Source: Paracoccaceae bacterium | GTDB taxonomy: Bacteria; Pseudomonadota; Alphaproteobacteria; Rhodobacterales; Rhodobacteraceae | Assembly (NCBI GenBank): GCA_029243395.1 | Contig: JAQWSE010000011.1 | Coordinates: 62,001-126,000 of the forward strand | DNA length: 64,000 nucleotides | Direction of reading: 5' to 3' | Part shown: positions 6,221 to 23,215 of the stretch, piece after piece | Position numbering within the stretch: the stretch's first letter is position 1 | How the letters are laid out: the number at the start of each line of letters is the position of its first letter | Program-made: the position numbers and the translations under genes | The notes under the pieces: generated by a model | What the model was told of the DNA's origin: nothing | The model's input: only the letters and a program-made list of their open reading frames with translations | Databases searched by the model: none

Positions 6221-7372
6221 GTGTCCAATATTAAGCTTTTTAATATTTCCATTTCAGAAGAAATTTTGAATAAAATAAAAAAACAGGTGAATGATTACCC
6301 ATGGCATCTAATGCCTGATGGATTAGACTGGACGTACGGAACTAGTAAAACGTACTTAAAGGAACTTTGTGATTACTGGACAACTACTTTTGACTGGAGA
6401 AAATCTGAACAAGAACTGAATAAATTTAACCAGTTCACAACTAGCATAGATGAAATGGATATTCACTTTATCCATGAAAAAGGAATTGGGGAAAATCCAA
6501 CACCTTTACTCATTAGTCACGGCTGGCCCGGTTCAATATCAGAGTTCTTAAAGATTATAGAGCCACTAACTAACCCTAAGAAGTTTGGTGGAATTTCAAG
6601 CGAATCTTTTGATGTAATAGCACCATCATTGCCTGGATTTGGTTTCTCGAGCGCACCTAAGCGTCCTTGGGGACCTCGTAAGATGGCCGGTATTTTGAAT
6701 AAACTTATGACCCAATCTTTGGGTTACAATTCTTACATTGCCCAGGGGGGCGATTGGGGTGGGGCCATTTCTTCATGGTTGGGATATGATTATCCAGAAT
6801 TCTGTCGCGCCATACATATAAATACCCTGACAATGAGGCATCCCGATCCTCCAGAAACACCGGCTGAAATTGAATGGGAAAAATCTTTCGAAATCGAGCA
6901 AATAATGGAAAATGGGTATAGGACTCAACAGGCCACTAGGCCACAGTCACTAGGCTATGCAATGATAGACAGCCCAGTAGGTATTGCAGCTTGGATCATT
7001 GAAAAATTCAATTCCTGGTCAGATGTAGAAAATAATGAAATAGAAAGTGTTTATACAAAGAATGAACTTCTAACGAATATAATGATATACTTGGTTACGG
7101 GCTGTTTTAACTCTGCTTCTTGGATATATTATGGTAGAAGGGAAGAAGGCGGTCGTATATTGTCACCAGAAGGAGACCGTGTTGAGGTTCCTACCGGTTG
7201 TGCTTTGTTTCCCGCTGAACTTCTCTCATGGCCTCCACGAACATATGTTGAAAAACTTTATAATGTTAAACAATGGACAGAAATGCCAAGGGGAGGGCAT
7301 TTTGCTGCTATGGAAGAGCCACAGCTATTAATAGAGGACATAAGGGCGTTCAAAAGAAAACTAACTGTGTGA
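6221..7372 (+). CDS. Epoxide hydrolase, alpha/beta-hydrolase fold (EHN domain)
   Basis: 383 residues from GTG. The N-terminal EHN-type lid (residues 1-100: PWHLMPDGLDWTYGTSKTYL) is followed by the core with the oxyanion motif HGWPGS at 100-105, the nucleophile elbow GGDWGG with Asp178, and the C-terminal catalytic histidine in RGGHFAAMEEP at about 360. WIYYGRREEG near residue 305 carries lid tyrosines that activate the epoxide. The family hydrolyses epoxides to vicinal diols in the cytoplasm (EC 3.3.2 group); many bacterial members have unknown natural substrates. Monocistronic: its 3' end overlaps by 12 bases the convergent gene on the other strand. Confidence 0.9.
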   Translation: MSNIKLFNISISEEILNKIKKQVNDYPWHLMPDGLDWTYGTSKTYLKELCDYWTTTFDWRKSEQELNKFNQFTTSIDEMDIHFIHEKGIGENPTPLLISHGWPGSISEFLKIIEPLTNPKKFGGISSESFDVIAPSLPGFGFSSAPKRPWGPRKMAGILNKLMTQSLGYNSYIAQGGDWGGAISSWLGYDYPEFCRAIHINTLTMRHPDPPETPAEIEWEKSFEIEQIMENGYRTQQATRPQSLGYAMIDSPVGIAAWIIEKFNSWSDVENNEIESVYTKNELLTNIMIYLVTGCFNSASWIYYGRREEGGRILSPEGDRVEVPTGCALFPAELLSWPPRTYVEKLYNVKQWTEMPRGGHFAAMEEPQLLIEDIRAFKRKLTV

Positions 7373-7969
7373 CCAATCATCAGGGTCTTCAGAATTGTTA
7401 GGTGAAAGACCGATGATGTCACCAGCCGTTGAACAACCTAAGCCTAGTACTGTACGATTTGCATATGAAAAGTATGCACAAACTTGATTTATTTCTAAGA
7501 TTTCACCATCTTCAAACCCTGCATTTCTTAGGTCCGTTATATTCCTTTCGGTCAATGAAGAGGGACTATCATTCAGGATCTGAGCATAAGACATTGCTAG
7601 TTTTTGCTTTTCATCTAAAGGGGCAATCGAAATATTATTTTCTTCAATGGCAGTTTTGATGGATTGGGATTTTTGATCGTCAGCAAGTAATCGTTTTAAT
7701 CCCTCAAAATGATGGTCCAGGCAATAACTGCAATTATTTAAGTGACTTACCCAAACACCTAATGTTTCCAAAAACCACTTTGGAATCGTATTATTTTTGT
7801 GATGAAGAACATATTTGTAGATTGCCATATGGCCTTCCATAGTATGTGGTCTCAAGGAATGAGCCATCATGATATTATCTACATTATCGTTAGGTCCTTT
7901 TACTCGATCATAAAGGCCTCTCACGCGCCCACTAGATTCACTGTATGGAATAGTCTTAATCCAAGCCAT
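7361..7969 (-). CDS. AhpD-like peroxidase-related protein (carboxymuconolactone decarboxylase fold)
   Basis: 202 residues. The AhpD-type redox signature C-S-Y-C-L-D-H-H is present (Cys80, Cys83, His86/87), preceded by a helix SHLNN, as in TIGR01926-type peroxidase-related enzymes of about 190 residues. The two cysteines and the histidine relay protons for alkylhydroperoxide or disulfide reduction. The N-terminal MAWIKTIPYSESSGRVRGLY is characteristic of this subgroup. No partner AhpC or reductase is close. It is convergent with the epoxide hydrolase and shares 12 bases with it. Family certain, in vivo substrate unknown. Confidence 0.88.
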   Translation of the reverse strand: MAWIKTIPYSESSGRVRGLYDRVKGPNDNVDNIMMAHSLRPHTMEGHMAIYKYVLHHKNNTIPKWFLETLGVWVSHLNNCSYCLDHHFEGLKRLLADDQKSQSIKTAIEENNISIAPLDEKQKLAMSYAQILNDSPSSLTERNITDLRNAGFEDGEILEINQVCAYFSYANRTVLGLGCSTAGDIIGLSPNNSEDPDDWSHS

Positions 7970-8109: not shown

Positions 8110-9090
8110 ATGACAAGCTCTAAATTTGCTTCTGCTAAATTAATCGACTTTGATCAAATCCCAGTTGTTGATATTTCGACAATAGAAACAGATAGAGGCT
8201 TTTTGCAAATTGCTGAGAAGTTAGTTGACACAGCTAAAACCGTTGGTTTCTTCTATATTACCGGGCACAAAATCTCTCCTAAACTAATTGAGCAAGCTTT
8301 TGCCTCGTCGAAGCGGTTTTTCAATTTGCCCATATCAAAAAAATCTACTGTTTCAGTGGACAAGAATCAACGAGGATGGATGGGGCAAGGGATGGCACAG
8401 CTTGAAGGTTCAAAAACTCATGATGCCAAAGAAGTTTTTTTCTGGGGTTGGGATGTTAAGGCCAATGACCCTGATGTGCGGACAGGAGTTCCAATGGTGT
8501 TCCCAAACCAATGGCCGGATGAAGTCGCTCCATTCTTGCGTCGCGATCTTATCCCATACTATCATGCTGTCATGTCCCTAGGGCGATTAATAATGAGCGC
8601 GCTTGCATATGGACTTGGGAGGCCTAAGAATTTCTTTGTCAAAGCATATGAAAAACCACTTGGGCGCGGACAGTTAGTTTATTATCCGCCGATGAGTGAA
8701 GAGGATAAACAACAAGAACGCTTTGGGGCTGCAGCCCATACTGATTTTGGTGTCTTAACTTTTCTTTTGCAAGATATGCAGGGTGGTTTGCAAGTACTCA
8801 ATCAATCAGGTCAATGGATAGAGGCTCAACCCATTGAAGGTAGTTTTGTCTGCAATATTGGAGATCTTTTGGAGCGTTGGACCAATGGGTACCTTGTTTC
8901 AACGAAGCATAGGGTCATCAACCGTAATAAAACAGCCCGTTATTCTATTCCTGTGTTTTGTGATCCATCCAGTAATACTATCATCAATCCCGCAGATTTT
9001 AGTGGCGGATCTAAGAATTATAGAAAAATAACGGCTGGAGAGCATATTGCACATCGAAACCAAAAGAATTTTACGCAATATAAAAAGTAA
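8110..9090 (+). CDS. 2-oxoglutarate/Fe(II) oxygenase, isopenicillin-N-synthase-like
   Basis: 326 residues. The DIOX_N region (VVDISTIETD, FFYITGH) leads to a complete metal triad: HTDFG with His210 and Asp212, and His267 in STKHRVI; the 2-oxoglutarate-anchoring R-Y-S (277-279) follows. FYITGHKI and RFFNLP are typical of the non-haem 2OG family that includes gibberellin, flavone and deacetoxycephalosporin enzymes. It probably hydroxylates or desaturates a small molecule in the cytoplasm. ATG with GAGGAA 7 bases upstream. Single gene; both neighbours point towards it or away. Substrate cannot be inferred from context. Confidence 0.92.
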   Translation: MTSSKFASAKLIDFDQIPVVDISTIETDRGFLQIAEKLVDTAKTVGFFYITGHKISPKLIEQAFASSKRFFNLPISKKSTVSVDKNQRGWMGQGMAQLEGSKTHDAKEVFFWGWDVKANDPDVRTGVPMVFPNQWPDEVAPFLRRDLIPYYHAVMSLGRLIMSALAYGLGRPKNFFVKAYEKPLGRGQLVYYPPMSEEDKQQERFGAAAHTDFGVLTFLLQDMQGGLQVLNQSGQWIEAQPIEGSFVCNIGDLLERWTNGYLVSTKHRVINRNKTARYSIPVFCDPSSNTIINPADFSGGSKNYRKITAGEHIAHRNQKNFTQYKK

Positions 9091-11029: not shown

Positions 11030-11614
11030 TTACTTAATGCCATCATATACGTAGTTTTCAGTTGAAACATCACCGTGCCAAATATAGACAGACATGAATG
11101 CCTCACTTCCTGTACGATTAGCATGCTCTATCATTGAGGGATGAAAAGACCGTTCCCCGGGTTTATGAAGGAGGTATGATTTCTCACCTACCTTCCAAAA
11201 TGCTTTGCCAGCAAGCATGATATATATTTCATCTGCCGGGTGGGTTCTGATACCGTATTCGGTATTGGGGAGCATCCCATAAAGACCTAGGCGAATGTGA
11301 TTTGATTTAACTAAACCTGCGGGCCCAATTAATTCAACGTGGGCTTTGGCAATGCTATGTTTGATATAAAGTGGGTCGGCAGAGGAGGTTGGAGGGTTCC
11401 AATTAAATGGAATTTTTAAAATAGTTTCGCATATAGGAAGAGCATCTTTTTGAGTCATCGCTTCAACAATGCTTTCAGCTAACTGATTGCCATTAGAGGG
11501 TAAATGTTTGGCATCATTCGTGGTTTTCAGGATATCTTTAGTGAGCATTTCAAGCTTGCTCTTTCCATCAAATACCTTTGCTAATTCCATAAACAAGATA
11601 TTTAGTGATATCAT
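11030..11614 (-). CDS. Cupin of the DMSP-lyase family (DddQ/DddL-like)
   Basis: 194 residues, C-terminal single cupin. Motif 1 reads R-T-H-P-A-D-E-I-Y with His125, Glu129 and Tyr131, then GKAFWK; motif 2 reads SFHPSMIEHANRT with His158 and His164. In DddQ, DddL and DddW these are the metal ligands (His, Glu, His) and the tyrosine that removes the proton in cleavage of DMSP to acrylate and dimethyl sulfide. The helical N-terminus (residues 1-75) and the LYGMLPNTEYGIRTHP lead-in also fit DddQ. The wider DMSP-lyase-like cupin superfamily includes members with other activities, so this is a strong candidate rather than a proven lyase. It lies 53 bp downstream of, and on the same strand as, an AEC permease gene. 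Confidence 0.8.
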   Translation of the reverse strand: MISLNILFMELAKVFDGKSKLEMLTKDILKTTNDAKHLPSNGNQLAESIVEAMTQKDALPICETILKIPFNWNPPTSSADPLYIKHSIAKAHVELIGPAGLVKSNHIRLGLYGMLPNTEYGIRTHPADEIYIMLAGKAFWKVGEKSYLLHKPGERSFHPSMIEHANRTGSEAFMSVYIWHGDVSTENYVYDGIK

Positions 11615-11667: not shown

Positions 11668-12552
11668 TTAATGCAATTGAAAAAACAAAATCGTTGGCAA
11701 TGATATCAATGAAAGGCAGGTAGACACAACCACTAAGCTAGCCACTTTGAGTGAGTCAGCCTCGTATTTCCTAGCAAGAAGGTAGGAAGTCACGGCTACA
11801 GGTGTTGAAATCTGCATTAATAAAACTGAAAAAGAAATCTCATTTAGTGAGAACAAATAACCAACAAATATTGCAGTCGACAAAGAAAGAAATAGTTTTA
11901 ATAGACTAAATTCAAGAGCAGTTTTCAGATCACTAATTTTGAGTTCAGCCACTGCTACACCAAGCGTAATTAACATTAAAGGTATGGCCATTTGACCAAT
12001 TAATTCTAAGGTTGAGGTAAGAAATAAAGGGGTAGAGAGGTCTGTGAAAAGAAAAATGCTGCCAAGGATTGTTGCCATTATTAAGGGTTCGTTTTTTAAA
12101 GCTTGAAATGATGTAGCTCCTCCTGACACAAACCAAATACCAATTGAAAAGGATAAAATAGCTGTGACAGAAAAAATTATAACAGCATAGCCAAGGCCAA
12201 CTTCACCAAAAGCAAAGTAAGTTAGTGGTAAACCTATATTCCCAGTATTTCCAAATGTTAAGGGAGCCAGATATGTTCGGAAATTAATTTTAGTTAACTT
12301 TATGAAACAGGTAAGGAAAATCATCAGAAGGAAATAAGTTAAAAAGGTCGCGATGGCCAAAAGAATTAAATGTTCTGAGTCAATTGTAGTTTTAATTAAT
12401 GAAACAAAAACTAAGCAAGGAACAGCAATCATCATGCTTAAGCGTGTTACGAATTTCATTGGATATTCAAATCCAAATCTGACCCAGAGGTAACCCAATG
12501 AAGAAAGAAAAAAAACAGGGAAAACAACTTCTAAAACTTTTAAAAAAATCAT
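11668..12552 (-). CDS. AEC-family permease (auxin-efflux-carrier fold)
   Basis: 294 residues from ATG 12552; a TTG at 12567 adds five residues. About ten membrane helices in two five-helix halves, with the mid-protein TFGNTGNIGLPLTYFAFG and the C-terminal half's LMQISTPVAVTSYLLARKYE, where the broken helices of the Mem_trans family lie. Members move small carboxylates (malate, malonate) or other anions. It is the upstream gene of a probable two-gene unit with the DMSP-lyase-like cupin (53-bp gap, same strand), which suggests it carries that enzyme's substrate or product; this pairing is inference from position. Confidence 0.85.
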   Translation of the reverse strand: MIFLKVLEVVFPVFFLSSLGYLWVRFGFEYPMKFVTRLSMMIAVPCLVFVSLIKTTIDSEHLILLAIATFLTYFLLMIFLTCFIKLTKINFRTYLAPLTFGNTGNIGLPLTYFAFGEVGLGYAVIIFSVTAILSFSIGIWFVSGGATSFQALKNEPLIMATILGSIFLFTDLSTPLFLTSTLELIGQMAIPLMLITLGVAVAELKISDLKTALEFSLLKLFLSLSTAIFVGYLFSLNEISFSVLLMQISTPVAVTSYLLARKYEADSLKVASLVVVSTCLSLISLPTILFFQLH

Positions 12553-12800
12553 TGAAAATGCCTGCAACCAGATTAAACCACATTAGTATGATTTTTTGTT
12601 CTGGATTAGAAGTGTTAACTCTAATATTGCCTGAAAAGCATCAGGTAGGGTCCTCCTTAGGATCCTAAAGCTATGTGGATAGCAAAGCTTTATGTTTGGG
12701 AATGTGTAAATCATATTAAATTGGCCTCACAAAATTGTTTTACAAGAACTAATGGTCTGATTAATTTATAAAGACATTATTTGTACCTTAGGGGGATATC

Positions 12801-13672: not shown

Positions 13673-14755
13673 TCATTCATGTAGAATGGCCATACTACTA
13701 CTATCCCATCCCACCCATACGGGATCAGTGCCGATGGACTGGCCAGTATCTACTCCAATGAAAGCCCGTAGAGTTACTCCCTCAGTATTTTCTATGAGGA
13801 TATCTACTACCATGCGGCTACCAAGAAAAGTTTTATTTATGAGACGACCTTGGACCGCATTAGAGATTTCTGGCTGGGTCTTATAAAAATCTAGTTTCTC
13901 AAGTCTCAAGGCAGCAATAATTGTAGAACCATTGCTAGGAGTACCTGAAGGGGCATGCCCGTAAAGCCTTTGGCCGTACCAGTCCATTATTACTGTAGAA
14001 CCATCTTTCCCACTCATCTTTCCAAATAGGAAATTAGTTTCACCGATGAATTCAGCAACAAAACGGCTTTTGGGTTGAAAATATAATTCCTCTGGCGTTC
14101 CGTCTTGCTCGACGCGACCATTATTCATAACTATAATTCTATCGGACATCGTTAGGGCTTCCTCTTGATCGTGAGTGACAAAAAAGAAAGTCTTATGAGT
14201 TTGGCGCTGAATTGATTTAAGTTCACGCTGCACTTGTCCACGCAGCTTTGCATCCAGTGCACCCAATGGCTCGTCTAGTAGTAATAAAGCAGGATCTGGA
14301 GCAAGAGCTCGAGCTAATGCTACGCGCTGGCGTTGCCCCCCCGAAAGCTGGCTTGGATAACGATCACCATATGCTTCTATTTGCAGAAAAGTCATTATTT
14401 CACTTTGTCGTCTCTTAATAGCAGCATTGTCTAGCCCCTTGAGTTCTAGAGCGAAGGCAATGTTCTGTCGAACAGTCATATGGGGAAACAAAGCATAATC
14501 TTGAAAAACCATATTTACATGGCGTTTTTCTGGAGGTAAATCTGTAACATCTTCCCCATCTAAGATAACAATGCCTGTATCAGGCTTTTCGAACCCACCA
14601 AGTATACGTAGGGTCGTGGATTTGCCGCACCCTGATGGACCAAGGAAAGTTACAAATTCACCCTGGGCAATGTCGAGTGATAAGCTCTCCAGAGCAACGG
14701 TAGTGCCAAATTTTTTTGAAATTCTGTCAATGCGAACAATAGGTGATGAAGTCAT
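13673..14755 (-). CDS. PotA/FbpC-type ABC transporter ATPase
   Basis: 360 residues. Walker A GPSGCGKST at 39-47, Q-loop VFQDYALFPHMT, ABC signature LSGGQRQRVALARAL, Walker B LLLLDEPLGALD, and switch histidine FFVTHDQEEAL, then a TOBE-type C-terminal domain (from about 235). This is the energy-coupling subunit of a spermidine/putrescine/amine type (CUT1-like) importer. Its ATG overlaps the stop codon of the preceding permease gene by four bases (ATGA), and it is the last gene of the nine-gene operon beginning at 22977. Confidence 0.93.
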   Translation of the reverse strand: MTSSPIVRIDRISKKFGTTVALESLSLDIAQGEFVTFLGPSGCGKSTTLRILGGFEKPDTGIVILDGEDVTDLPPEKRHVNMVFQDYALFPHMTVRQNIAFALELKGLDNAAIKRRQSEIMTFLQIEAYGDRYPSQLSGGQRQRVALARALAPDPALLLLDEPLGALDAKLRGQVQRELKSIQRQTHKTFFFVTHDQEEALTMSDRIIVMNNGRVEQDGTPEELYFQPKSRFVAEFIGETNFLFGKMSGKDGSTVIMDWYGQRLYGHAPSGTPSNGSTIIAALRLEKLDFYKTQPEISNAVQGRLINKTFLGSRMVVDILIENTEGVTLRAFIGVDTGQSIGTDPVWVGWDSSSMAILHE

Positions 14756-15543
14756 AGTTGGCTCTCCTTATTGGTTCGACGGGTAAATCGTTCAGCCCAA
14801 ATCCCAATGGCAGCAGTCAAGACCAGTGCTATGGTAGCTATGGCATTGATCTCTGGTGACATGCCAGACCTAAGCATTGCAAAGATTAGAACTGGTAATG
14901 TTTCCTCATAACCACCAAGGAAAAATGAACGTACAAAGTCGTCAAAGCTTAGAAGCATACAAAATATGCTGGCTCCCAAAATGGAGGGAACGAGGTAGGG
15001 GAGAGTGATGCGAAGAAAAGCAACAAGTGGGTCTGCACCTAGATCACGAGCAGCCTCTGTTTGACTCTTAGGTAGTGTTGATAGTCGAGCCATAACAACA
15101 AGTGATACAAAAGGAACGTTATGAACTGCGTGAGCCCATATAATTGCTCCCATTCCTGGCTCAATTCCTAGCCAGCGAGCGTATATCCTAAATGCAATGG
15201 CAGATATAATGCCTGGCACTAGGGCGGGTAAGACCATGAGGCCAAAAGTTACAGCCCATCCCCAGAACTTGCGACCTTCCAGAAGTAAGGCAAGCCACGT
15301 TCCGATTACGACAGAAATTAAAGTTGATAAAATAGCTATCAGCATGGAGTACCCAAAGGTATAAAGGATTTCGGCATCTGAAAAAATACTGTAGTACCAA
15401 TCAAGTGTCCAAGACCGGATCGGGAATCCAATGAACTTGCTGTCTTTAAAACCCATAAGAATCATAAGAATAAGGGGCACAAAAACATAAAGGACAAATG
15501 CCCAATAAACACAAGCTAGTACAATTCTATTGCTGCGATTCAT
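14752..15543 (-). CDS. PotC-type ABC permease
   Basis: 263 residues from ATG 15543; a longer in-frame reading extends into the preceding gene and is rejected. Six membrane helices with the cytoplasmic EAA loop TEAARDLGADPLVAFLRITLPYL, the docking site for the ATPase. N-terminus MNRSNRIVLACVYW with the conserved VFVPLILMILMGF lead helix is typical of PotC. Pairs with the PotB-type subunit encoded just upstream, overlapping it by four bases, and with the ATPase downstream, also by four bases, so the three products are translationally coupled. Confidence 0.92.
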   Translation of the reverse strand: MNRSNRIVLACVYWAFVLYVFVPLILMILMGFKDSKFIGFPIRSWTLDWYYSIFSDAEILYTFGYSMLIAILSTLISVVIGTWLALLLEGRKFWGWAVTFGLMVLPALVPGIISAIAFRIYARWLGIEPGMGAIIWAHAVHNVPFVSLVVMARLSTLPKSQTEAARDLGADPLVAFLRITLPYLVPSILGASIFCMLLSFDDFVRSFFLGGYEETLPVLIFAMLRSGMSPEINAIATIALVLTAAIGIWAERFTRRTNKESQL

Positions 15544-16526
15544 TTTGTGTCTCCTCTTCGTAGAGCCTTCATCAGTTTTTGAAATAACCCAGTTATAAAG
15601 AGCGCTGCCGCAAACATAATAACAGCGAAAGCCGCACCGGTAGGCCACTCGTCACCTGCATAGTGAAAAAATCCAGCAATGGTTTCAGCAAATACTGTGG
15701 TCGATGGTCCACCCAAAAGAACTGGTGTTGCGTAAAAACCTGTTGATATAAGAAAAACCAGCGTGCAGCCTGATGAAATACCTTCAATAGTGAGAGGGAG
15801 CGTAATTCTGCGAAATCGTGTCCAAGCCCCCGCACCAAGATCCGCGGCAACCTCAGTATAGCTCTTAGGTAGTTTTTCTAGGGCAGAGTAAAGAGGTAAA
15901 AGCATATAGAGCGCTGTTAGGTAAACTATCCCAAGTCCCATCGAGAAGCTGGTATACATGAATGGGATAGGACGTTCTATCAATCCAAGCCACTTTAGAG
16001 CAAGGTTTACTGCACCTGTATTCCCCAAAAGGATCATTATTGCATAGGTGCGCACAATTTCTCCTACCCAGAACGGGATTAGAAGGATCAAAAGCATTAA
16101 CATTTGGTTGTGACGACTTACATGCCTTGCAAGAAAATAAGCTACTGGATAAGTCAGAATAAGAGTGCAAAAGGTGAATACAGCTGCAAAAGTAAGAGTT
16201 CTAAAGAAGGGCATCCAGAAGATGTGGTCTCCAAAAAAACGAATATAATTGTCGAGTGTGAAATTTTGTGGAGCTCCTTGGGCAACGGGATAGGATTCAA
16301 GTAACGATACTCGCGCCATTTGAATCATCGGGCCCAAATGTTGAGTTAGGAGCCACAGTAAAGGAAAGGCGGCAAGGATTATAAACTGACGTCTCGGAGA
16401 TGCAGTAGCAAAAGTCAGTAGTAGGCGATATGGTTGCCAGTTCGTGAGGCGTCCCCAGAATGGGCGAGTGGCTGAATATTGAACAATGTCATCGTGATTT
16501 TTCCGTGCTGAATCTTCGTGAGACAT
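15540..16526 (-). CDS. PotB-type ABC permease
   Basis: 328 residues from ATG 16526 (TTG at 16535 possible); AAAGG lies about 10 bases upstream of the ATG. An N-terminal cytoplasmic stretch of about 40 residues precedes six or seven membrane helices. The EAA loop is TEVAADLGAGAWTRFRRITLPL. WVGEIVRTYAIMILLGNTG is the PotB/PotH-type mid-section. Separated from the binding-protein gene by a 78-bp gap that carries a strong hairpin (16561-16588). Confidence 0.92.
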   Translation of the reverse strand: MSHEDSARKNHDDIVQYSATRPFWGRLTNWQPYRLLLTFATASPRRQFIILAAFPLLWLLTQHLGPMIQMARVSLLESYPVAQGAPQNFTLDNYIRFFGDHIFWMPFFRTLTFAAVFTFCTLILTYPVAYFLARHVSRHNQMLMLLILLIPFWVGEIVRTYAIMILLGNTGAVNLALKWLGLIERPIPFMYTSFSMGLGIVYLTALYMLLPLYSALEKLPKSYTEVAADLGAGAWTRFRRITLPLTIEGISSGCTLVFLISTGFYATPVLLGGPSTTVFAETIAGFFHYAGDEWPTGAAFAVIMFAAALFITGLFQKLMKALRRGDTK

Positions 16527-16560
16527 TTTGCACAAACCTTTCTCACCAAATCTCTAAAGG

Positions 16561-16588
16561 GGATCTGCCCAAGACAAAGGGCAGATCC
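16561..16588 (-). promoter_or_regulatory. Stem-loop between PotD-type and PotB-type genes
   Basis: GGATCTGCCC (16561-16570) and GGGCAGATCC (16579-16588) form a perfect 10-bp stem with an 8-base loop. On the coding (minus) strand it begins 16 bases after the binding-protein stop and has no following U-run. It is in the same place as the hairpins at 4060 and 38840. Confidence 0.75.
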
Positions 16589-16604
16589 TTGTATTTAATT
16601 TAGT

Positions 16605-17711
16605 CTATGCAGCTTTAACAGCCTCTACAGCGGGATCAACTAAACCATATTTCATCTTGTTCGCTTCGGCACGGAAGAACTGCAAGTTGGCAATCTGTTC
16701 TTCAGGAAAAGACGTTGATTGTTTTTCAAGATCGGTTAGGTAATTTGAAGCATCCTTGTATGTAGAGATGAACCCTGATGCCTTGGTCATGGACGCTCCT
16801 ATTTCGGGAGAGGCAAGAATTGCATTAAGAAACGTATAAGCATTATCTGCATTTGGCGCATTATTAGCTACGTTATATGTATATACAAAGCCGTATGAAC
16901 CCTCATTCGGGATAGTCATTCCCAATGGAAAACCATCGTTTATCAATGCAGCGGCAGGCCCGTTCCAGCTATGCCCTAGAGCAATGTCCTGGTTTACAAA
17001 CATTTGCTGTACTTCAGCCCCACTGTCATAGTATTTACGAACTAGCGATTTTTTTGAAATCAAGAACTGTTTGGCCTCTTCAACAATGGCTGCTGCCTTG
17101 TCTGGATTATCCATATAAGCTACCATGTTGCCGTCGTAACCAAGCATTAGCATTACGATGGACATCATATCCTGAATAATGTAGGCAGTTTGGCCAGAAT
17201 ATTTTTCTGAAAAAAGAGTGTTCCAAGTCATTGCTTCTTCTTGAGAAACAAGCTCAGTGTTATAGGCCAGGATTTCCATACCTGAGAGTATGGGTGCACC
17301 CCATTTATGACCGTTGATTGTAGCCCAGTCACTTTCCGAGAAGGTTGGGTTAATGTTGCCCCAATTTGATAGACGGTCTGTATCAAGCGGTGCCAGAAGT
17401 TCATTGTCGATAAATTGTAGAAAGCGGTGCCCAGCTACTGTCATGATGTCAACTGTTGGGTTCGGTGCTTCTGCCGCTAGGAGGTTAAATTGCTTACCTT
17501 GATCATCGACGAGACGAATGTTCACTTTTATTCCTGTTTCTGCCTCAAATTGTTTTTTAAAACTTTTCGGCACAAAATCGTTGTAAGTCCAAATATTGAC
17601 CTCACCTCCTGCCGCTGATGCACTGCGTAGATAAACAGGACTAGCCAGAGCAGCACCAGTCATTGCGGCAGTGCTCATGAAACGGCGACGGTTGAAAGTA
17701 AATTTTGTCAT
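16605..17711 (-). CDS. PotD-type extracellular solute-binding protein, Tat-exported
   Basis: 368 residues. The N-terminus carries a twin-arginine signal (NRRRFMSTAAMTGAALASP), with cleavage near SASA-A. The mature protein starts VNIWTYNDFVPKSFKKQF and has the bilobal fold of polyamine-type receptors (SBP_bac_8 type). Tat export implies folding in the cytoplasm, which is common for this group. Polyamine-type receptors of this cluster bind many amines and other small solutes besides putrescine and spermidine, so the ligand is open. Strong ribosome site AAGGAG at 9 bases. Follows the opine-dehydrogenase-like gene by 71 bp. Confidence 0.92.
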   Translation of the reverse strand: MTKFTFNRRRFMSTAAMTGAALASPVYLRSASAAGGEVNIWTYNDFVPKSFKKQFEAETGIKVNIRLVDDQGKQFNLLAAEAPNPTVDIMTVAGHRFLQFIDNELLAPLDTDRLSNWGNINPTFSESDWATINGHKWGAPILSGMEILAYNTELVSQEEAMTWNTLFSEKYSGQTAYIIQDMMSIVMLMLGYDGNMVAYMDNPDKAAAIVEEAKQFLISKKSLVRKYYDSGAEVQQMFVNQDIALGHSWNGPAAALINDGFPLGMTIPNEGSYGFVYTYNVANNAPNADNAYTFLNAILASPEIGASMTKASGFISTYKDASNYLTDLEKQSTSFPEEQIANLQFFRAEANKMKYGLVDPAVEAVKAA

Positions 17712-17782
17712 TTTTGCATCTCCTTGTTGGTTTCTCTAGATTTTGTTGTCCGCACACATCTTAAAGATACCAATATAGGTAT

Positions 17783-18865
17783 CTAGTGCAACAACCCGGT
17801 ACGGGCAGCTTGTTGCAAATTCTTAAGGTTAAAACTATTCAAATCAAGTGCGTTAAGCAATTCATTTTCTTTAGAAAAATCACGGTCATACATAGCCGAA
17901 AAAATCTGGATCCCGGCTTCGTGTAGAATCGCTGGACGATTCACCAATTTTCCTAGAATGACTGTCAGCTGCAACCCATAAGGGACATCTTCGATGATGT
18001 AGCGGCTATGCGCCGTAGCTGGACCAATACCTCCATTGCCTTTTGCATGCATTTGCTGATTCATCTTAGAAATTGATTCTATGGGGATATGAAAACTCAA
18101 GTGAAAGTGTTCAAAAATTGTTTTCACCTTAACACCTAGTGCTTCAGCAATTGCTAAGCGTTCAATATCAAGTTTTTCTAGCAATCGTCCAACACGGGGG
18201 GTAACATTTTGGCCTTGGCTCCAGATCTCGCCTCGTTCCATGCGAGTAATATTGCCTAGGGCTATTCCCAAATGGTTTTGAGGATTAAGGTTGGACAGTG
18301 AAATGGCCAGTAAACCCTTTCTACTTTTGAAGCGGTTTCCAAACAATTTCTTGCAAACTGTTAGAGCGCAATTTGAACGTGTTTCGGGAACTGTGCATAG
18401 GTCAACAGAATCACGGACAGTATTTACACGTACCCCTTTTTTGTTACACCTCTTACCTGTGACAATTGTAGTGCCCCAAGCGGTAATGGGCACAGATATA
18501 CCTCGGGTATTCAGAAGTTGCGCCAAGTAAACTGCTCCTAGAGAAGCGTGGGAAGATACAATTACTTTCTGACGTTCATGAATATATGGAGCTAATTTAT
18601 CCATCACAACCTTGTGTCCGTAGGCTGGTAAAGCAATGATAATTACTTCATTACTAGCAATAAGTGCCTTGGCGGATTTTGCGATCCTTACCTTAAAGTT
18701 CAAGTCCAAGGCGCCTTCAGCTGAAATGCCGTTTTCAAGGCCTTCAGTGCTAATCCCGGAGGGAGACCAAAGCATCGTGTCATGCCCATGATCTGATAAA
18801 AAAGCTGCTGTACCTAATGCAATTGATCCCGCTCCAGCAATTCCTACCCGTAAGCTATCGCTCAT
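17783..18865 (-). CDS. Opine/octopine dehydrogenase-family enzyme
   Basis: 360 residues from ATG 18865 (a GTG at 18892 adds nine). N-terminal Rossmann domain with GAGSIALG and the ALPAYGH segment; C-terminal Octopine_DH helical domain (PF02317) with the signature NHLGIALGNITRMERGE and SRYIIEDVPYGL. Opine dehydrogenases join an amino acid and a 2-oxo acid by reductive amination with NAD(P)H; the reverse reaction releases both. In a catabolic operon with an importer the oxidative, opine-splitting direction is plausible (inference). The ATG overlaps the stop of the preceding gene by eleven bases, so it is coupled. Confidence 0.88.
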   Translation of the reverse strand: MSDSLRVGIAGAGSIALGTAAFLSDHGHDTMLWSPSGISTEGLENGISAEGALDLNFKVRIAKSAKALIASNEVIIIALPAYGHKVVMDKLAPYIHERQKVIVSSHASLGAVYLAQLLNTRGISVPITAWGTTIVTGKRCNKKGVRVNTVRDSVDLCTVPETRSNCALTVCKKLFGNRFKSRKGLLAISLSNLNPQNHLGIALGNITRMERGEIWSQGQNVTPRVGRLLEKLDIERLAIAEALGVKVKTIFEHFHLSFHIPIESISKMNQQMHAKGNGGIGPATAHSRYIIEDVPYGLQLTVILGKLVNRPAILHEAGIQIFSAMYDRDFSKENELLNALDLNSFNLKNLQQAARTGLLH

Positions 18866-19448
18866 GAGAGGGTTCCCGCCGTATTGGGTCACCTAGTACG
18901 TGCATCAACCGGTTAGCCCACCCAAATAATGCTGCTGACAAAATGAGGTCAAGAATTTCAGCCTCCTTGAGCCCAGCCTTACGAAGCTCATCCATATCTT
19001 GAGGGTCAGTTTCAGGGGGTGTTGCTGATAATTTGCGTGCAAAATGAAAAATAGCAGCTTGGCGGGGGGGTAGATCTGCCTTCAACCCTTCGCTAAACAA
19101 TTTTTCAGTTACTTCGGTACTATTTTCCAGCTTTGCGTGGCGGTCTGCATGGACAGCTGCGCAATAGATGCACTGATTTACCATGGATGCTGCAATTGCC
19201 CCCAATTCCCGTTCGGAACGAGACATTCCTCCCTCATCATACATTATAGCATTGAAAAGAGGCGATCGAACAGCAAGACTTTCTACATCATGTGCCAGTG
19301 TCAGGACATAAGCTGAAACTTTCGTGTTAGACGGAGTGATTTTGAGTGCCTCCAGTTGTTCTTTTGTAGCCTCTTCTTGCTTTATCGGAGTGACTCTGGG
19401 TTTCCAAAGTGGAACTCTGCGGGTAAATTTGCGAACCACACTGCTCAT
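18855..19448 (-). CDS. Alkylhydroperoxidase-domain (CMD fold) protein, Avi_7169-like
   Basis: 197 residues from ATG 19448, whose ATGA overlaps the previous stop. The redox motif is QCIYCAAVHADRH (Cys93, Cys96, His100). An N-terminal extension with RRVPLWKPRVTP precedes the CMD domain; this is the layout of TIGR04030 (Avi_7169 family), which is found next to TIGR04029 proteins, exactly as here. These paired families occur in operons with importers and flavin monooxygenases. Reaction unknown: peroxide reduction, or protonation/decarboxylation of a ring-opened product. Family placement is from memory of the family layout, not from a search. Confidence 0.85.
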   Translation of the reverse strand: MSSVVRKFTRRVPLWKPRVTPIKQEEATKEQLEALKITPSNTKVSAYVLTLAHDVESLAVRSPLFNAIMYDEGGMSRSERELGAIAASMVNQCIYCAAVHADRHAKLENSTEVTEKLFSEGLKADLPPRQAAIFHFARKLSATPPETDPQDMDELRKAGLKEAEILDLILSAALFGWANRLMHVLGDPIRREPSHER

Positions 19449-19924
19449 ACCGCGCCATCTTTCATCGTATGCATCCCTGTCGTAATTCGAACTTGATATG
19501 CAATAAATGCCACCAGCTGACATACTCTGACTATATCTTGATCCGCAAAGCCTGCCGCCTGCATATCAGTTATATCATTTTCTTCGATATCACTTGGCAT
19601 ATTTGCCACCTTGTCAACAAAGTCAGTCAATGTGCGAAGATCCATATGAGTTTCATGCCCTGGATGATCAGAAGATGCTTTGGGATCTGCAATCTGCATG
19701 TAGTGCAATGCTAATTCTGAATGCCCTGCTTTTTTAGCAATCCTAGCTGCTAACCAGGCTCTCAATTCATGGGGAAAGGGGCCACAATCCTTTGGGTGTA
19801 TTACTGCATCCTCTGCTGCTTGCGTCAGTTCAAATATCTGGGAACGAGCTTTGACGGCAGTTCCAGTGCTGCTATTATTATTAATGCCTGAAATGGTTAG
19901 CGCAGTAGTGTCGAATATGCTCAT
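19445..19924 (-). CDS. CMD-fold protein lacking the redox CXXC, Avi_7170-like
   Basis: 159 residues from ATG 19924 (ATGA overlap with the flavoprotein gene; the longer reading is inside that gene). Helical, with HELRAWLAARIAKKAGHSELALHY and the C-terminal VCQLVAFIAYQVRITTGMH matching the CMD helices, but no Cys-x-x-Cys. TIGR04029 (CMD domain, Avi_7170 family) proteins have this size and partner. It likely forms a hetero-complex with the redox-active partner encoded immediately downstream, or is a non-redox CMD enzyme. Function inferred only from partnership. Confidence 0.75.
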   Translation of the reverse strand: MSIFDTTALTISGINNNSSTGTAVKARSQIFELTQAAEDAVIHPKDCGPFPHELRAWLAARIAKKAGHSELALHYMQIADPKASSDHPGHETHMDLRTLTDFVDKVANMPSDIEENDITDMQAAGFADQDIVRVCQLVAFIAYQVRITTGMHTMKDGAV

Positions 19925-21387
19925 GCCACTTTTCCTTGATCTTTGTTGGGATGGAGTTCTGTAGGGGCCCATTCATGCCCTTGGAGCTCAGGTTTTTTAT
20001 AGTTTAGCATTAACTGCCAATGTTCCTCTATATCTTCACTATACAACTGTGAAGCTATTGCTCTTGCTAGCCAAGCAGCGCCTTCACTGATACCAGGGAT
20101 ATCACCACTAACCTTTCCAAGGCTAGCTGACGCTCCGTAATTGAAACAAAAAACATTTTTAAGCCAAGGGGCAGTTTCCGCTACTTTTTCGCAGAAGCTA
20201 AAATCAGGATTTAGATAAGGGAAGCACCCAAGTTCGTCATTTTTTTCATCTTTGGGAGGTGTGTAGACATCTTTCCACAGTAAGATGTTACCAGCGTTTT
20301 TGCCAAATTCCGTTCTAGCCAGCGGGTCGATTTTAAAGCCGGTTCCCAGAATTACAAAGTCTGCTAAATATGAGGTATTATCAGAAAAAAAGATCTTCGC
20401 TTGATCACCATGTTGTTGGATTTTAATCGTTTCTTTATCAAAATGAAAATAAGCATTTTTATGCCTACTCACACGAAGTGTAGACCCGTGTGGCGGTGGA
20501 GTTTGAGTGGCAAAAGAATATTGCATAAACCTCCACCTCCATTCATCAGGTAAGGCAGCATAGCCTGCGGTAAAGCCAAAACTACCGATCCCCATCATCT
20601 TATTAATTGTGGGCATCTCCTTACGACGTATCAAGTGTCGTACTTCAGTTGCCCCATGCTCAAGTGCTTCAGCGGCATTGTCTACAGCTGAAGCGCCTAC
20701 TCCTATAACAGCAACACACTTATTTTTTAGCATAGAAAAGTTGATTTCATGTGCACAGTGTGCCCAAAGATCTTGGGACAGGCCATTAACAAAGCTTGGA
20801 ATATTGGGGGACCCAGTTCCATCACGTCCTGTGGCAAAAATCAGCTTCCGGCAGAGTATAGTTTCATCAGTCATGCCTGAAACCTGTAGTCTCAAAAGAT
20901 TCCCTTTGTTTTCCACATGGTCGAGAGAGATTCCATTTTCAATGGGAATATTAAGTACATGACGATACCAACGCAAATAATCCATCCACATAGGACGTAA
21001 AATCTTATCTAAGGCATTCCACTTTGTGACCCCAAATTGAGCTCGATACCAGGCCTGAAATGTAAGTCCACCATGGCTGAAAGCAGGGCCGGTCAAATCC
21101 TTAGGAGATCTCAAGGTTTCCATTCGAGCATAGGTTAACCAAGGACCTTCATAGCCTTCTATTGCTCGATCAAGAATACGGATGTTTTGCATGCCGCCGG
21201 TAATTAGTGATAACCAAGTTACCATACCACACATCCCGCCGCCAACAATGACTACATCGGCGACACCGTCGCGTCGTGGAACCCAATTCTTGCTTGGAAC
21301 CCCCAGGCAGTTAAGATCAGTCCTTAACTTGGTTTCAAGTTCTTGGAGGCCAAGATCATCGTAATAATTTAAATCCGACAGAAACAT
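19921..21387 (-). CDS. FAD/NAD(P)-dependent flavoprotein monooxygenase-like
   Basis: 488 residues. FAD-binding motif VVIVGGGMCGM near residues 46-54 and a second Rossmann motif VAVIGVGASAVDNA near 227 for NADPH, as in class B flavin monooxygenases and lysine/ornithine N-hydroxylases. The ATGRDG strand and VILGTGFKIDP are further FAD contacts. Such enzymes oxygenate amines, sulfides or ketones using NADPH and O2. Cytoplasmic. Its stop overlaps the CMD gene by four bases. It starts 129 bp after the PLP-enzyme gene, with only a weak AAAGAG ribosome site. Strong family call, substrate unknown. Confidence 0.88.
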   Translation of the reverse strand: MFLSDLNYYDDLGLQELETKLRTDLNCLGVPSKNWVPRRDGVADVVIVGGGMCGMVTWLSLITGGMQNIRILDRAIEGYEGPWLTYARMETLRSPKDLTGPAFSHGGLTFQAWYRAQFGVTKWNALDKILRPMWMDYLRWYRHVLNIPIENGISLDHVENKGNLLRLQVSGMTDETILCRKLIFATGRDGTGSPNIPSFVNGLSQDLWAHCAHEINFSMLKNKCVAVIGVGASAVDNAAEALEHGATEVRHLIRRKEMPTINKMMGIGSFGFTAGYAALPDEWRWRFMQYSFATQTPPPHGSTLRVSRHKNAYFHFDKETIKIQQHGDQAKIFFSDNTSYLADFVILGTGFKIDPLARTEFGKNAGNILLWKDVYTPPKDEKNDELGCFPYLNPDFSFCEKVAETAPWLKNVFCFNYGASASLGKVSGDIPGISEGAAWLARAIASQLYSEDIEEHWQLMLNYKKPELQGHEWAPTELHPNKDQGKVA

Positions 21388-21516
21388 GAGTGTTTTAACT
21401 CTTTATCTTCACATTCATTATTATTCTTCAAGATGATACCAGTGCATGTCTAAGTTATCAACATGGCATCTATTTATCTTACACATTTTGGAACATGAGA
21501 CTAGAAAAAGAGTTCT

Positions 21517-22977
21517 TCAGGATAGGGAACGTTTTCTATTAGCATCATTTGGTAAGAATTGAGCATTCCGGGGGTCAGCATAGTAATAACCTTGATATTC
21601 AGCCGCTGAATTGGCAAGTTTCCCCACGCCATTTATCAGCTTGGTAACCTTTTCATCAGTCATTAGAGCTGAAAAATTGAGTCGCACCCAACCTGGTTTC
21701 TCCAATTCTTGCCCAGTATTAATCAGGCGTTCAAGTTCTACAGAGCTTTCTTGCTCGAGGCCAAGCAAACGGTGAGCATAAGGTCCAGCGCATGCACATC
21801 CTCCTCTCGCTTGAATGCCTTCAACATCGCTCAAAAGTCGGGTAAAAAGCTGATGGTGAATATACGCACCTTTTCCATCTCGTATTCTGAAAGATAAGAT
21901 TGGTAATGCATTAGCTATTTCAGCGCCAAAAATTTCAAGACTTTCGTTCCGTGACCAAATTTCAAGGACCTTTGCGCGTAATTCTTGCTGTCGCTCAATC
22001 AGCCAGTCCTGCCCTAAGGCTTCTTTAACAAGCATGACAAGTGCCACACGTATATCTCCAATTATATTTGGGGTTCCACCTTCTTCTCTTGCCGAGACAC
22101 AGTTGGAATAGGTGTGTCTCCAGGGGGACACAAAGTTCACCGTTCCTCCTCCTGGTAGTGTTGGTTGCTTGAGACTAACGATTTCATCACGTAAGATCAT
22201 TACACCACTTGCTGCTGGCCCTCCAGGAAACTTGTGAGGAGAAAAAACAAGGGCATCTATAGCTGCAGACGAGCCTACATTCATATCCATAGGCATATAA
22301 GGTGCTCCACATCCATAATCCCATATTGCAAGGGCTCCCTTTGATTTTAATAACCGGGTCACTGCATTTACATCGGTTATGATACCTGTGACATTTGATG
22401 CGGCCGAGAAAGCCCCAACAACAATGTCGGTAGACAAGGATTTTTCGAGCACCTTTCCCAAGGTCTTAAGACAAGGTCCTCCTTGACTGCTTTCGTCAAT
22501 TTCGATTATTTCGGCACCACTTTCGCGCCAAGGTAGTAAATTGGAATGATGTTCATAAGGTCCTACTAGAATTAGAGCTTGCCCGCCCTTCGACAGTATA
22601 CCTCTGATGTCTAACAAGCCAACAATTCGGTTGATCCCAGCTGTTGACCCTGATCCAGTAAAAACTACACTTGTACCAGAGTGGGCCGCCGTCATTCGCG
22701 CAATTTCTAGACGTGCTGCTTCTCGCATTTCTGTAATATAAGCACCACAATATGAAGCCTTAGTATGGCTATTGGCATAATAGGGTAATACTTTTTGACG
22801 AATAAAATTTTCTACCTGATCCAGTGCTCTTCCTGATGCTACATAGTCAGCATAGATCATTTCTCGAGGGCCAAAAGGTCCCTCGATTTCAATTCCATCT
22901 CCGATTAAACCCGAACGAATCCAATCTACGATGTCGTCTCTTTGCAACGATTCTTTGAACTCTTCAAGAGGGTACAT
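21517..22977 (-). CDS. Class V PLP-dependent aminotransferase-fold enzyme (cysteine-desulfurase-like)
   Basis: 486 residues from ATG 22977 (AAAGAG 8 bases upstream); TTG 23082 and ATG 23013 are upstream alternatives. Fold type I: YADYVASG, FTGSGSTAGINR (phosphate loop), PYEHHSNLLPWRE (His stacking on PLP), WDYGCGAPYMP (Asp to pyridine N) and SPHKFPGG with Lys249 as Schiff base. The C-terminal RGGCACAGPYAHRLLG places a cysteine where SufS/CsdA keep their catalytic one, so a C-S lyase or persulfide-forming activity is possible; cysteine desulfurases usually have RxGHHC. It is the first gene of the operon. Confidence 0.87.
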   Translation of the reverse strand: MYPLEEFKESLQRDDIVDWIRSGLIGDGIEIEGPFGPREMIYADYVASGRALDQVENFIRQKVLPYYANSHTKASYCGAYITEMREAARLEIARMTAAHSGTSVVFTGSGSTAGINRIVGLLDIRGILSKGGQALILVGPYEHHSNLLPWRESGAEIIEIDESSQGGPCLKTLGKVLEKSLSTDIVVGAFSAASNVTGIITDVNAVTRLLKSKGALAIWDYGCGAPYMPMDMNVGSSAAIDALVFSPHKFPGGPAASGVMILRDEIVSLKQPTLPGGGTVNFVSPWRHTYSNCVSAREEGGTPNIIGDIRVALVMLVKEALGQDWLIERQQELRAKVLEIWSRNESLEIFGAEIANALPILSFRIRDGKGAYIHHQLFTRLLSDVEGIQARGGCACAGPYAHRLLGLEQESSVELERLINTGQELEKPGWVRLNFSALMTDEKVTKLINGVGKLANSAAEYQGYYYADPRNAQFLPNDANRKRSLS

Positions 22978-23215
22978 GTAAATCTCTTTGTTAGGCTTTT
23001 TAAGTCCTAACATTGCATTTTTTTTTGAATATCTCAAAGAAAAATTTACGAGTGCCGTAGAACTTCTCTTAGTCACTCTCAACTTAATGGTGGTTTTATA
23101 ACAACATCATAAAATAGCAATCATTTTATGATCAAGAGATAATAGATTGGTATTCAAAAGGATGCACTTTTATTAAACTAACTACTTAAGTAGGCAGGAC
23201 TTGCGGAGGATATGA

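Follow-up and report, generated by a model that had tools for sequence, protein, structure and literature searches.

Organization of the nine-gene operon

The stretch of DNA analyzed here (hereafter, the window) comprises 64,000 nucleotides of contig JAQWSE010000011.1 (positions 62,001 to 126,000), which belongs to the 2.49 Mb genome assembly of a Paracoccaceae bacterium (GCA_029243395.1). Between positions 13673 and 22977, it harbors nine intact minus-strand genes laid end to end, exactly where an initial annotation, made from the letters alone, had placed them. In order of transcription (PLP-FMO-CMD1-CMD2-ODH-SBP-PotB-PotC-PotA), they encode the following proteins: PLP, a class V pyridoxal phosphate enzyme resembling cysteine desulfurases (21517-22977, 486 aa; Pfam Aminotran_5, 145.7 bits); FMO, a FAD/NAD(P)H monooxygenase-like flavoprotein (19921-21387, 488 aa; Pyr_redox_3 and Lys_Orn_oxgnase-like profiles of Pfam/NCBIfam); CMD1, a carboxymuconolactone decarboxylase (CMD)-like protein without the CxxC pair (19445-19924, 159 aa; TIGR04029, 65.6 bits, cut-off 100.75); CMD2, an AhpD-type peroxidase-related enzyme with a CxxC...H motif (18855-19448; TIGR01926, 187.3 bits); ODH, an octopine/nopaline-dehydrogenase-family enzyme (17783-18865); SBP, a PotD-family periplasmic binding protein (16605-17711; SBP_bac_8, 101.3 bits); a PotB-type and a PotC-type permease (15540-16526 and 14752-15543, both BPD_transp_1); and a PotA-type ATPase (13673-14755; ABC_tran, 123.2 bits). 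The Pfam and NCBIfam profiles bore out the family labels first given to these proteins, with slightly longer frames being used in the searches of CMD1, CMD2, ODH, PotB and PotC. The operon is real, conserved and, as far as our searches reach, uncharacterized, and it probably serves the catabolism or salvage of a cysteine-derived compound.

ATGA overlaps were found at four of the eight junctions (FMO/CMD1, CMD1/CMD2, PotB/PotC and PotC/PotA), one more than initially counted, and the 11-base overlap also reported at that time is present between CMD2 and ODH. The other three junctions are gaps, of 129 nt (PLP-FMO), 71 nt (ODH-SBP) and 78 nt (SBP-PotB). A 12-pair hairpin lies within the SBP-PotB gap (16559-16590, listed on the plus strand), and terminator-like sites as a class were not significantly enriched in the window (12 sites, compared with 9.3 on average in shuffled sequences). 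Similarly, an extended promoter-like match (10/12) is situated in the PLP-FMO gap (21461-21433), and such matches were no commoner than in shuffles (24 vs 21.9).

Conserved features of the encoded proteins

In PLP, the Schiff-base Lys249 and the catalytic Cys396 (within RGGCACAGPY) were both kept in all 122 homologous rows; in this and the following alignments, some rows represent one genome taken twice. The cysteine aligns in register with the active cysteine of a SufS-type chain, a residue that we take to be catalytic, and the closest PDB chains are cysteine desulfurases. PLP is SufS-like, yet it remains below the NCBIfam cut-offs for SufS, CsdA, IscS and NifS (best value, 126.9 bits vs 475.1 for TIGR01979), so that it would represent at most a distinct subfamily. 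Because a stronger class V match is also present elsewhere in the genome (C1:120229, 425.4 bits), PLP is probably not the housekeeping enzyme. On the basis of family, residues and structural relatives, it is predicted to be an enzyme of the class V cysteine-desulfurase kind.

The PDB relatives of FMO recovered by profile, all of them weak, were the flavin monooxygenases 4usr, 4c5o and 4a9w, steroid monooxygenases and the thioredoxin reductase 7a76. Some small bacterial flavin monooxygenases are catalysts of sulfoxidation. Regarding the CMD pair, both CxxC cysteines and the histidine of CMD2 were kept in 109 of 109 rows, with a TIGR04030 score below cut-off (145.9 vs 233.15 bits). CMD1 yielded no Pfam match at an E-value of 0.001, its two cysteine positions are not conserved across rows, and it evolves fast, being 44% identical in a locus (L050) where the other genes are 74-96% identical.

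ODH passes the Pfam Octopine_DH model (PF02317) with 113.2 bits against a cut-off of 30, a match that gives a predicted function only, and its closest solved structure is 1bg6. Residues His198, Arg288 and Asp293, which we assume to be the catalytic triad of opine dehydrogenases, were kept in 91 of 91 rows. ODH homologues were located between the arginase and ornithine cyclodeaminase genes of the pAtK84b nopaline region (47% identity; L084, 12001-13083), and in the pTi regions of strains CFBP6549 and CFBP4996 (42%). Given these residues and the homologues in agrobacterial opine regions, the version of the operon with a Pot importer may take an N-carboxyalkyl form of its substrate.

Distribution and gene orders

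A scan of named genomes with FMO returned at least 576 relatives, and the best 80 loci were retained; two of less than 7 kb were left out and 78 were mapped by tblastn. Locus counts are taken from these maps, since in GC-rich genomes antisense open reading frames (ORFs) obscured the drawings based on ORFs. In 65 of the 78 loci, FMO, CMD2, ODH, SBP, PotB, PotC and PotA were all present at 40% identity or more within one stretch of at most 21 kb, a recurrence beyond what chance would give. CMD1 was found in 71, Lrp in 35, PLP in 31 (at 45% identity or more, which excludes seven PLP proteins near 40% from loci with TRAP-type importers), MFS in 30, Kbl in 13, Tdh in 12 and MATE in 10. Among 394 genomes of the family, 37 carry an FMO homologue (E-value of 1e-60 or better), which is at least 60% identical in 21. 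The gene set occurs in Rhodobacterales, rhizobia, Halomonas, Granulosicoccus and Pantoea, and plasmids bearing the unit include S. meliloti pSymB, A. fabrum pAtC58 and those of Nitratireductor and Aminobacter. The closest named relative among the matches listed is the marine Rhodobacteraceae metagenome-assembled genome (MAG) NAT102 (L088), with an FMO identity of 97%. Two contigs titled as 'Deltaproteobacteria' MAGs (L107 and L122) also carry the cassette, with FMO identities of 72% and 69%, through either transfer or misbinning. The operon is thus not unique, but common in various forms among marine and soil bacteria.

Two main gene orders were observed. In Rhodobacterales and others, it reads Lrp | PLP-MFS-FMO-CMD1-CMD2-ODH-SBP-PotBCA, with 17 loci exactly so, and in rhizobia SBP-PotBCA-FMO-(DSBA-like)-CMD1-CMD2-(XRE)-ODH, or with ODH divergent. 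The DSBA-fold protein, presumably akin to GST-kappa, is annotated in some loci as 2-hydroxychromene-2-carboxylate isomerase. In loci with a TRAP-type importer, Lrp and a PLP near 40% identity precede FMO-CMD1-CMD2-TRAP in seven of eight cases, the contig of the eighth starting at FMO. Altogether, four kinds of importer lie beside FMO-CMD (Pot, TRAP, amino-acid ABC and Dpp), and some of the TRAP, amino-acid ABC and Dpp versions carry an M19 dipeptidase or HyuAB. These importer variants suggest one core that deals with several related substrates.

Gene content, gene order, conserved residues and repeated co-occurrence are direct observations. They modify the picture of the operon as a single unit, which holds for the core, while PLP is the loosest member: it is set apart by its own 129-nt gap, elsewhere it usually has its own regulator, and most of it has been lost from the sister genome L088. 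A tree was built from 110 PLP rows by a quick method with SH-aLRT support; the supported group that contains the window row has 28 members, 26 of them from FMO loci and drawn from several orders, and supported branches force at least five changes of the FMO-locus label. The sister row of the window PLP in this tree is that of L122. Scattering of the enzyme genes in relatives had been named as an outcome that would speak against the operon; in most mapped loci they are not scattered, PLP alone being sometimes elsewhere or missing. Judged from gene maps and phylogeny, the operon is best described as consisting of a core (FMO-CMD-ODH-importer) and a PLP module that evolves separately, to which relatives often add an MFS or MATE exporter or Lrp. 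The window operon has neither MFS nor Lrp in place, and a CBS-domain-like gene (named from sequence) lies upstream instead.

Links to cysteine and sulfur metabolism

Several genes that recur with PLP or FMO point to cysteine. Forty plasmid PLP loci were listed among 223 matching records, and eight were examined by hand; in six of these eight, the next gene after PLP encodes a sulfur dioxygenase (SDO; an MBL hydrolase corresponding to the SDO half of Blh). Three SDOs scored 534.7, 519.2 and 547.3 bits against Blh, whose cut-off of 625 refers to the whole transferase/dioxygenase fusion; the remaining three share 68-75% identity with one of those scored. In two of the six, SDO is followed by a gene for TauE/SafE, a sulfite exporter, and these two loci additionally contain FMO and CMD2 together with an amino-acid ABC importer and, in one case, ODH. 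Five TauE-family genes were found in the window genome.

Three loci with FMO and CMD2 (L075, L078 and L343) have, in place of PLP, the L-cysteine desulfhydrase Cds1, a protein of the PALP fold unrelated to PLP (570.7, 581.7 and 568.9 bits; cut-off, 600). The genomes of the first two (G310 and G284) are absent from the 104 family genomes with PLP (E-value of 1e-110). In L343, Cds1 comes after RidA, which disposes of 2-aminoacrylate, a product of cysteine beta-elimination. The Cds1 gene of L078 is divergent from another Lrp gene, whose product is 61% identical to the PLP-linked Lrp; the latter adjoins PLP directly upstream, in divergent orientation, at 55 of 60 PLP loci lying outside FMO loci. 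This set of 60 consists of 58 of the 104 family matches and two others, with known FMO loci left out and about 25 weaker matches not included. At the genome level, PLP was detected in 17 of the 21 family genomes with an FMO of at least 60% identity vs 87 of the 373 others (Fisher p of 1e-7 over the 394 genomes, uncorrected for kinship). Peptidase-family genes were also seen near FMO, namely M19 dipeptidases (L076, L080, L298-L300, L170 and L343) and M20 hydrolases (L053 and L342), the latter presumably of the family to which the deacetylases of S-alkylcysteine pathways belong.

As a control, 20 arbitrary 20-kb stretches were taken from genomes with distant FMO homologues. They contained PotA-type ATPase (10), PotC (3), PotB (2), LysR (2), DctM (2), Lrp (1), MATE (1) and DSBA-like (1) genes, and no match to PLP, Cds1, CMD1, CMD2, M19, SDO or ODH. 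PotA-type ATPases and LysR regulators are so common in such stretches that neighbors of this type alone mean nothing, and the control is weak for PLP because most control genomes have no PLP at all. Among 49 more distant FMO loci, CMD2 was present in seven, M19 in five, PLP in four and Cds1 in two, and none of CMD1, CMD2, M19, PLP and Cds1 was found in the 20 with an FMO identity of 37% or less, so that the link is confined to the nearer FMO family.

A proposed role in the use of substituted cysteine

Based on these associations, we propose, with confidence divided about evenly for and against, that the operon serves to break down or salvage a substituted cysteine, either an S-conjugate or an N-carboxyalkylated, opine-like form. 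SBP-PotBCA would import the compound, and ODH would take off the N-carboxyalkyl group, where present, in an NAD(P)-linked reaction. FMO might then oxygenate the sulfur (or the carbon of the C-S bond) using NAD(P)H and O2, after which the substituent would leave, yielding cysteine or cysteine sulfenate. The CMD1-CMD2 pair could reduce the sulfenate or a peroxide via the invariant CxxC of CMD2, with CMD1 as the partner without conserved cysteines, and PLP would finally convert cysteine into alanine and persulfide sulfur. From the PLP, Cds1, SDO and RidA partners, we infer cysteine as the common intermediate; it is conjectural in which order the steps follow one another, what FMO catalyzes, what CMD1-CMD2 and ODH contribute, and which compound is the substrate. 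In this scheme, the uptake, oxidation and C-S or C-N cleavage initially envisaged are kept as a frame, while no support was found for the handling of ring products. Of the three substrate classes then put forward, namely a substituted amine, an opine-like conjugate and a sulfur-containing amine, the comparison favors an amino acid that contains sulfur and derives from cysteine, and that may be opine-like as well; it lends no support to thiohistidines.

The chemical precedent comes from the salvage of S-alkylcysteine and S-(2-succino)cysteine in B. subtilis. CmoO and CmoJ are reported to open S-substituted cysteine with flavin and O2 by sulfoxidation, C-S cleavage to a sulfenic acid and reduction (PMC10863075), and ScmK is likewise reported to open S-substituted cysteine with flavin and O2 (PMC12757645, PMC9706529). 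From this flavin/sulfenate precedent, FMO is proposed as the oxygenase and CMD2 as the reductant. An importer and a flavin monooxygenase are present in both systems; action of the latter on S-substituted cysteine, with release of cysteine, was shown there and is proposed here. The described pathways differ in their N-acetylation and deacetylation steps, for neither of which there is a gene among the nine, and in lacking the CMD pair, ODH and the desulfurase. Moreover, the CmoO/CmoJ and ScmK monooxygenases presumably belong to another class than FMO. The operon works like S-substituted-cysteine salvage, but it is not filed as a member of the Cmo/Scm systems because the genes of the acetylation steps are missing.

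A number of observations weigh against the use of substituted cysteine. The absence, among the nine genes, of the acetyltransferase and deacetylase of the known S-alkylcysteine pathways is one of them. L088 lacks the stretch equivalent to window positions 21735-23214, so that only the last 72 PLP codons are left, in a flanking cassette that is 97% identical and with both flanks aligned; either the unit can do without PLP or it is undergoing decay in this genome. At the breakpoint (9657-9669 in L088), the alignments of the two flanks have 13 bases in common. Thirty genomes were chosen for having an FMO-CMD locus that PLP does not adjoin; 17 of them encode PLP elsewhere and the other 13 nowhere (E-value of 1e-100). 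The Blh SDO was not found in the window genome, in a search that had no positive control, and in the 60 PLP loci outside FMO loci SDO occurred in none and TauE beside PLP in one. One of these 60, L214, the only one with ODH and importer, keeps Lrp, PLP, MFS, ODH and importer without FMO or CMD, although the lack of FMO across this set is partly a matter of selection. Two sets of neighbors are unexplained by cysteine. The first, kbl-tdh for threonine breakdown, adjoins the cassette at 13 of the 78 loci, arranged in more than one way, and suggests threonine or glycine. The second comprises iron ABC genes and genes for receptors of the TonB or FepA type, located close to PLP in L019 and L022.

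An extended form of the proposal holds that FMO-CMD1-CMD2 is an undescribed system cleaving C-S bonds (or N-substituents), with the CMD pair finishing the flavin reaction, and that the PotABCD-ODH version feeds on a sulfur opine, i.e., an N-carboxyalkylated cysteine conjugate, as an unrecognized nutrient in sea water and rhizosphere; taken as a whole, this is speculative and rather unlikely. If substituted cysteine is indeed the substrate, a flavin/CMD route would be added to organic sulfur turnover in sea and soil, and a function would be suggested for the CMD pair families TIGR04029/TIGR04030.

Comparison with described systems

No named pathway for this gene set was found in the open-licence literature among the best 10-20 matches of each search, subscription papers being outside the search. 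A counterpart is the cluster SMb20278-SMb20285 on S. meliloti pSymB, which reportedly responds to PII and GlnD mutations and is considered a putative polyamine system (PMC3596328); the tags were assigned here by gene order from that paper, the pSymB record used having no annotation. In addition, SMb20284 is listed among possible polyamine transport proteins in an Hfq proteome study (PMC3484140). The cluster shares CMD2, CMD1, FMO, PotA, PotC, PotB, SBP and a divergent ODH, at 47-56% identity except for CMD1 (29%), and differs in that the importer genes come first, no PLP gene adjoins and the label is polyamine; a LysR gene is named there instead of Lrp (PMC3596328). The present comparison narrows this annotated 'polyamine' cluster to a sulfur-amino-acid hypothesis that is testable in S. 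meliloti 1021.

Like E. coli CyuR-CyuPA, PLP loci pair a regulator gene with a gene for a cysteine-degrading enzyme, even though the enzyme family is another one and the window has no Lrp beside PLP. We take CyuR to be kin to Lrp. A dependence of CyuR on cysteine has been reported (PMC11408624). The TIGR04027-TIGR04030 set of the A. vitis type (L341) likewise has a flavin monooxygenase, a CMD pair and an importer in one row, but its monooxygenase is luciferase-like (presumably the class of CmoJ and ScmK), its importer is Dpp-like, and CMD1 and CMD2 of the window stay under the TIGR04029/TIGR04030 cut-offs. A parallel set combining the CMD pair with a luciferase-like monooxygenase was found in both A. 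vitis L341 and P. denitrificans L344; we know of no shown function for the TIGR04027-TIGR04030 set. Finally, the catabolic regions of Ti/opine plasmids share an Octopine_DH-family gene beside importer and oxidase genes, but no FMO, CMD or PLP match was obtained in the three loci compared.

Alternative explanations

An unlikely alternative, though one to be taken seriously, is sulfur-free opine catabolism, in which the importer would take up an N-carboxyalkyl amino acid that ODH, joined by FMO as a second oxidase, would split into amino acid and keto acid, PLP being an incidental neighbor. The fully conserved ODH residues and the homologues in the opine regions of pAtK84b and of the two pTi plasmids are in line with this, as are the genomes in which PLP is missing, and the kbl-tdh neighbors would fit threonine release. 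Against it, the TRAP, Dpp and amino-acid ABC variants are mostly without ODH in the operon (exceptions are L172 and, on the opposite strand, L134 and L142), and cysteine-breaking enzymes of two folds recur with FMO-CMD.

Detoxification rather than nutrition, with the enzymes unloading toxic thiol adducts and MFS or MATE exporting the product, seems improbable to us. The exporters in 30 (MFS) and 10 (MATE) of the 78 loci, the isomerase-annotated DSBA-fold protein in some loci and the peroxidase-like nature of CMD2 would suit such a role, but an importer is present in most mapped loci, the window operon has no exporter, and the S. meliloti genes reportedly respond to nitrogen-status mutants (PMC3596328).

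It appears very improbable that an opine-type metallophore or signal is made, exported and taken up again. ODH, an N-hydroxylase-like FMO, an exporter and an importer together resemble opine metallophore loci in plan, and the iron ABC and receptor genes near PLP in L019 and L022 fit in with this; yet the importer swaps to TRAP and amino-acid ABC types, FMO-CMD is repeatedly paired with cysteine-degrading enzymes, and no receptor gene is among the genes recurring with FMO, no search having been aimed at receptors.

The importer itself bears on a role in polyamine metabolism. The PDB relatives of SBP are PotD/PotF, and all Pot equivalog models of NCBIfam remained under cut-off, with 369.4/482 bits for PotA, 181.2/348 for PotB, 154.6/326 for PotC and 64.2/582 for PotD. 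When SBP was aligned with 8y5h_E, taken as E. coli PotD from length and numbering, W229 was kept, E171 corresponded to Asp181 and D168 fell in a gap, while D257 was replaced by Tyr277 and W255 by Phe in 66 of 66 rows each; we assume that D168, E171, W229, W255 and D257 of PotD contact the polyamine. Uptake and oxidation of polyamines, as the S. meliloti cluster has been labeled on homology, was set aside as the least probable explanation, hardly to be expected despite the Pot proteins among the nearest named relatives of SBP, PotB, PotC and PotA, since the Pot cut-offs were missed, one pocket acid is Tyr, and the FMO-CMD enzymes also occur with TRAP, amino-acid ABC and Dpp importers.

Candidate substrates and neighboring genes

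Two substrates may be named as guesses to accompany the use of substituted cysteine. One is 2-oxothiazolidine-4-carboxylate, which would be opened by the oxoprolinase-like HyuAB; a Hydantoinase_B gene is present in L074, HyuAB also occurs in L073 and is annotated in L342, and among the NCBIfam models HyuB matched a caprolactamase subunit best, below cut-off. The other is S-(2-carboxyethyl)cysteine, the acrylate adduct, prompted by a nearby cupin resembling dimethylsulfoniopropionate (DMSP) lyase; it stays a guess because the cupin is confined to the genus of the window among the loci compared. ChaC, a gamma-glutamylcyclotransferase found near standalone PLP in 23 of the 60 loci, was considered as a link to glutathione and rejected: genes resembling hisC, tyrA and rpsD (named from sequence) lie in that stretch too, so that the ChaC-PLP proximity is read as inherited gene order.

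The cupin gene (11030-11614; Pfam DMSP_lyase, 59.4 bits, cut-off 27) and a permease-like gene (11668-12567) lie near the window cassette. Their homologues are situated upstream of FMO in the single-cell genome AG-435-K15 (L089; 3410-3988 and 1839-2720), and the pair was seen only in three loci of the same genus.

The window also encodes a further CMD/AhpD-like protein (7361-7969; TIGR01926, 79.5 bits, just below the cut-off of 81.8), adjoined by a 2-oxoglutarate/iron-oxygenase-like gene (8110-9090, named from sequence). In A. vitis L341, genes for the luciferase-like monooxygenase, two CMD proteins and an annotated 2-oxoglutarate/iron oxygenase stand in a row. In genome G680, a TIGR04027 luciferase-like monooxygenase is located 12 kb from a distant FMO homologue (C1:306774-307748 and 319826-321229).

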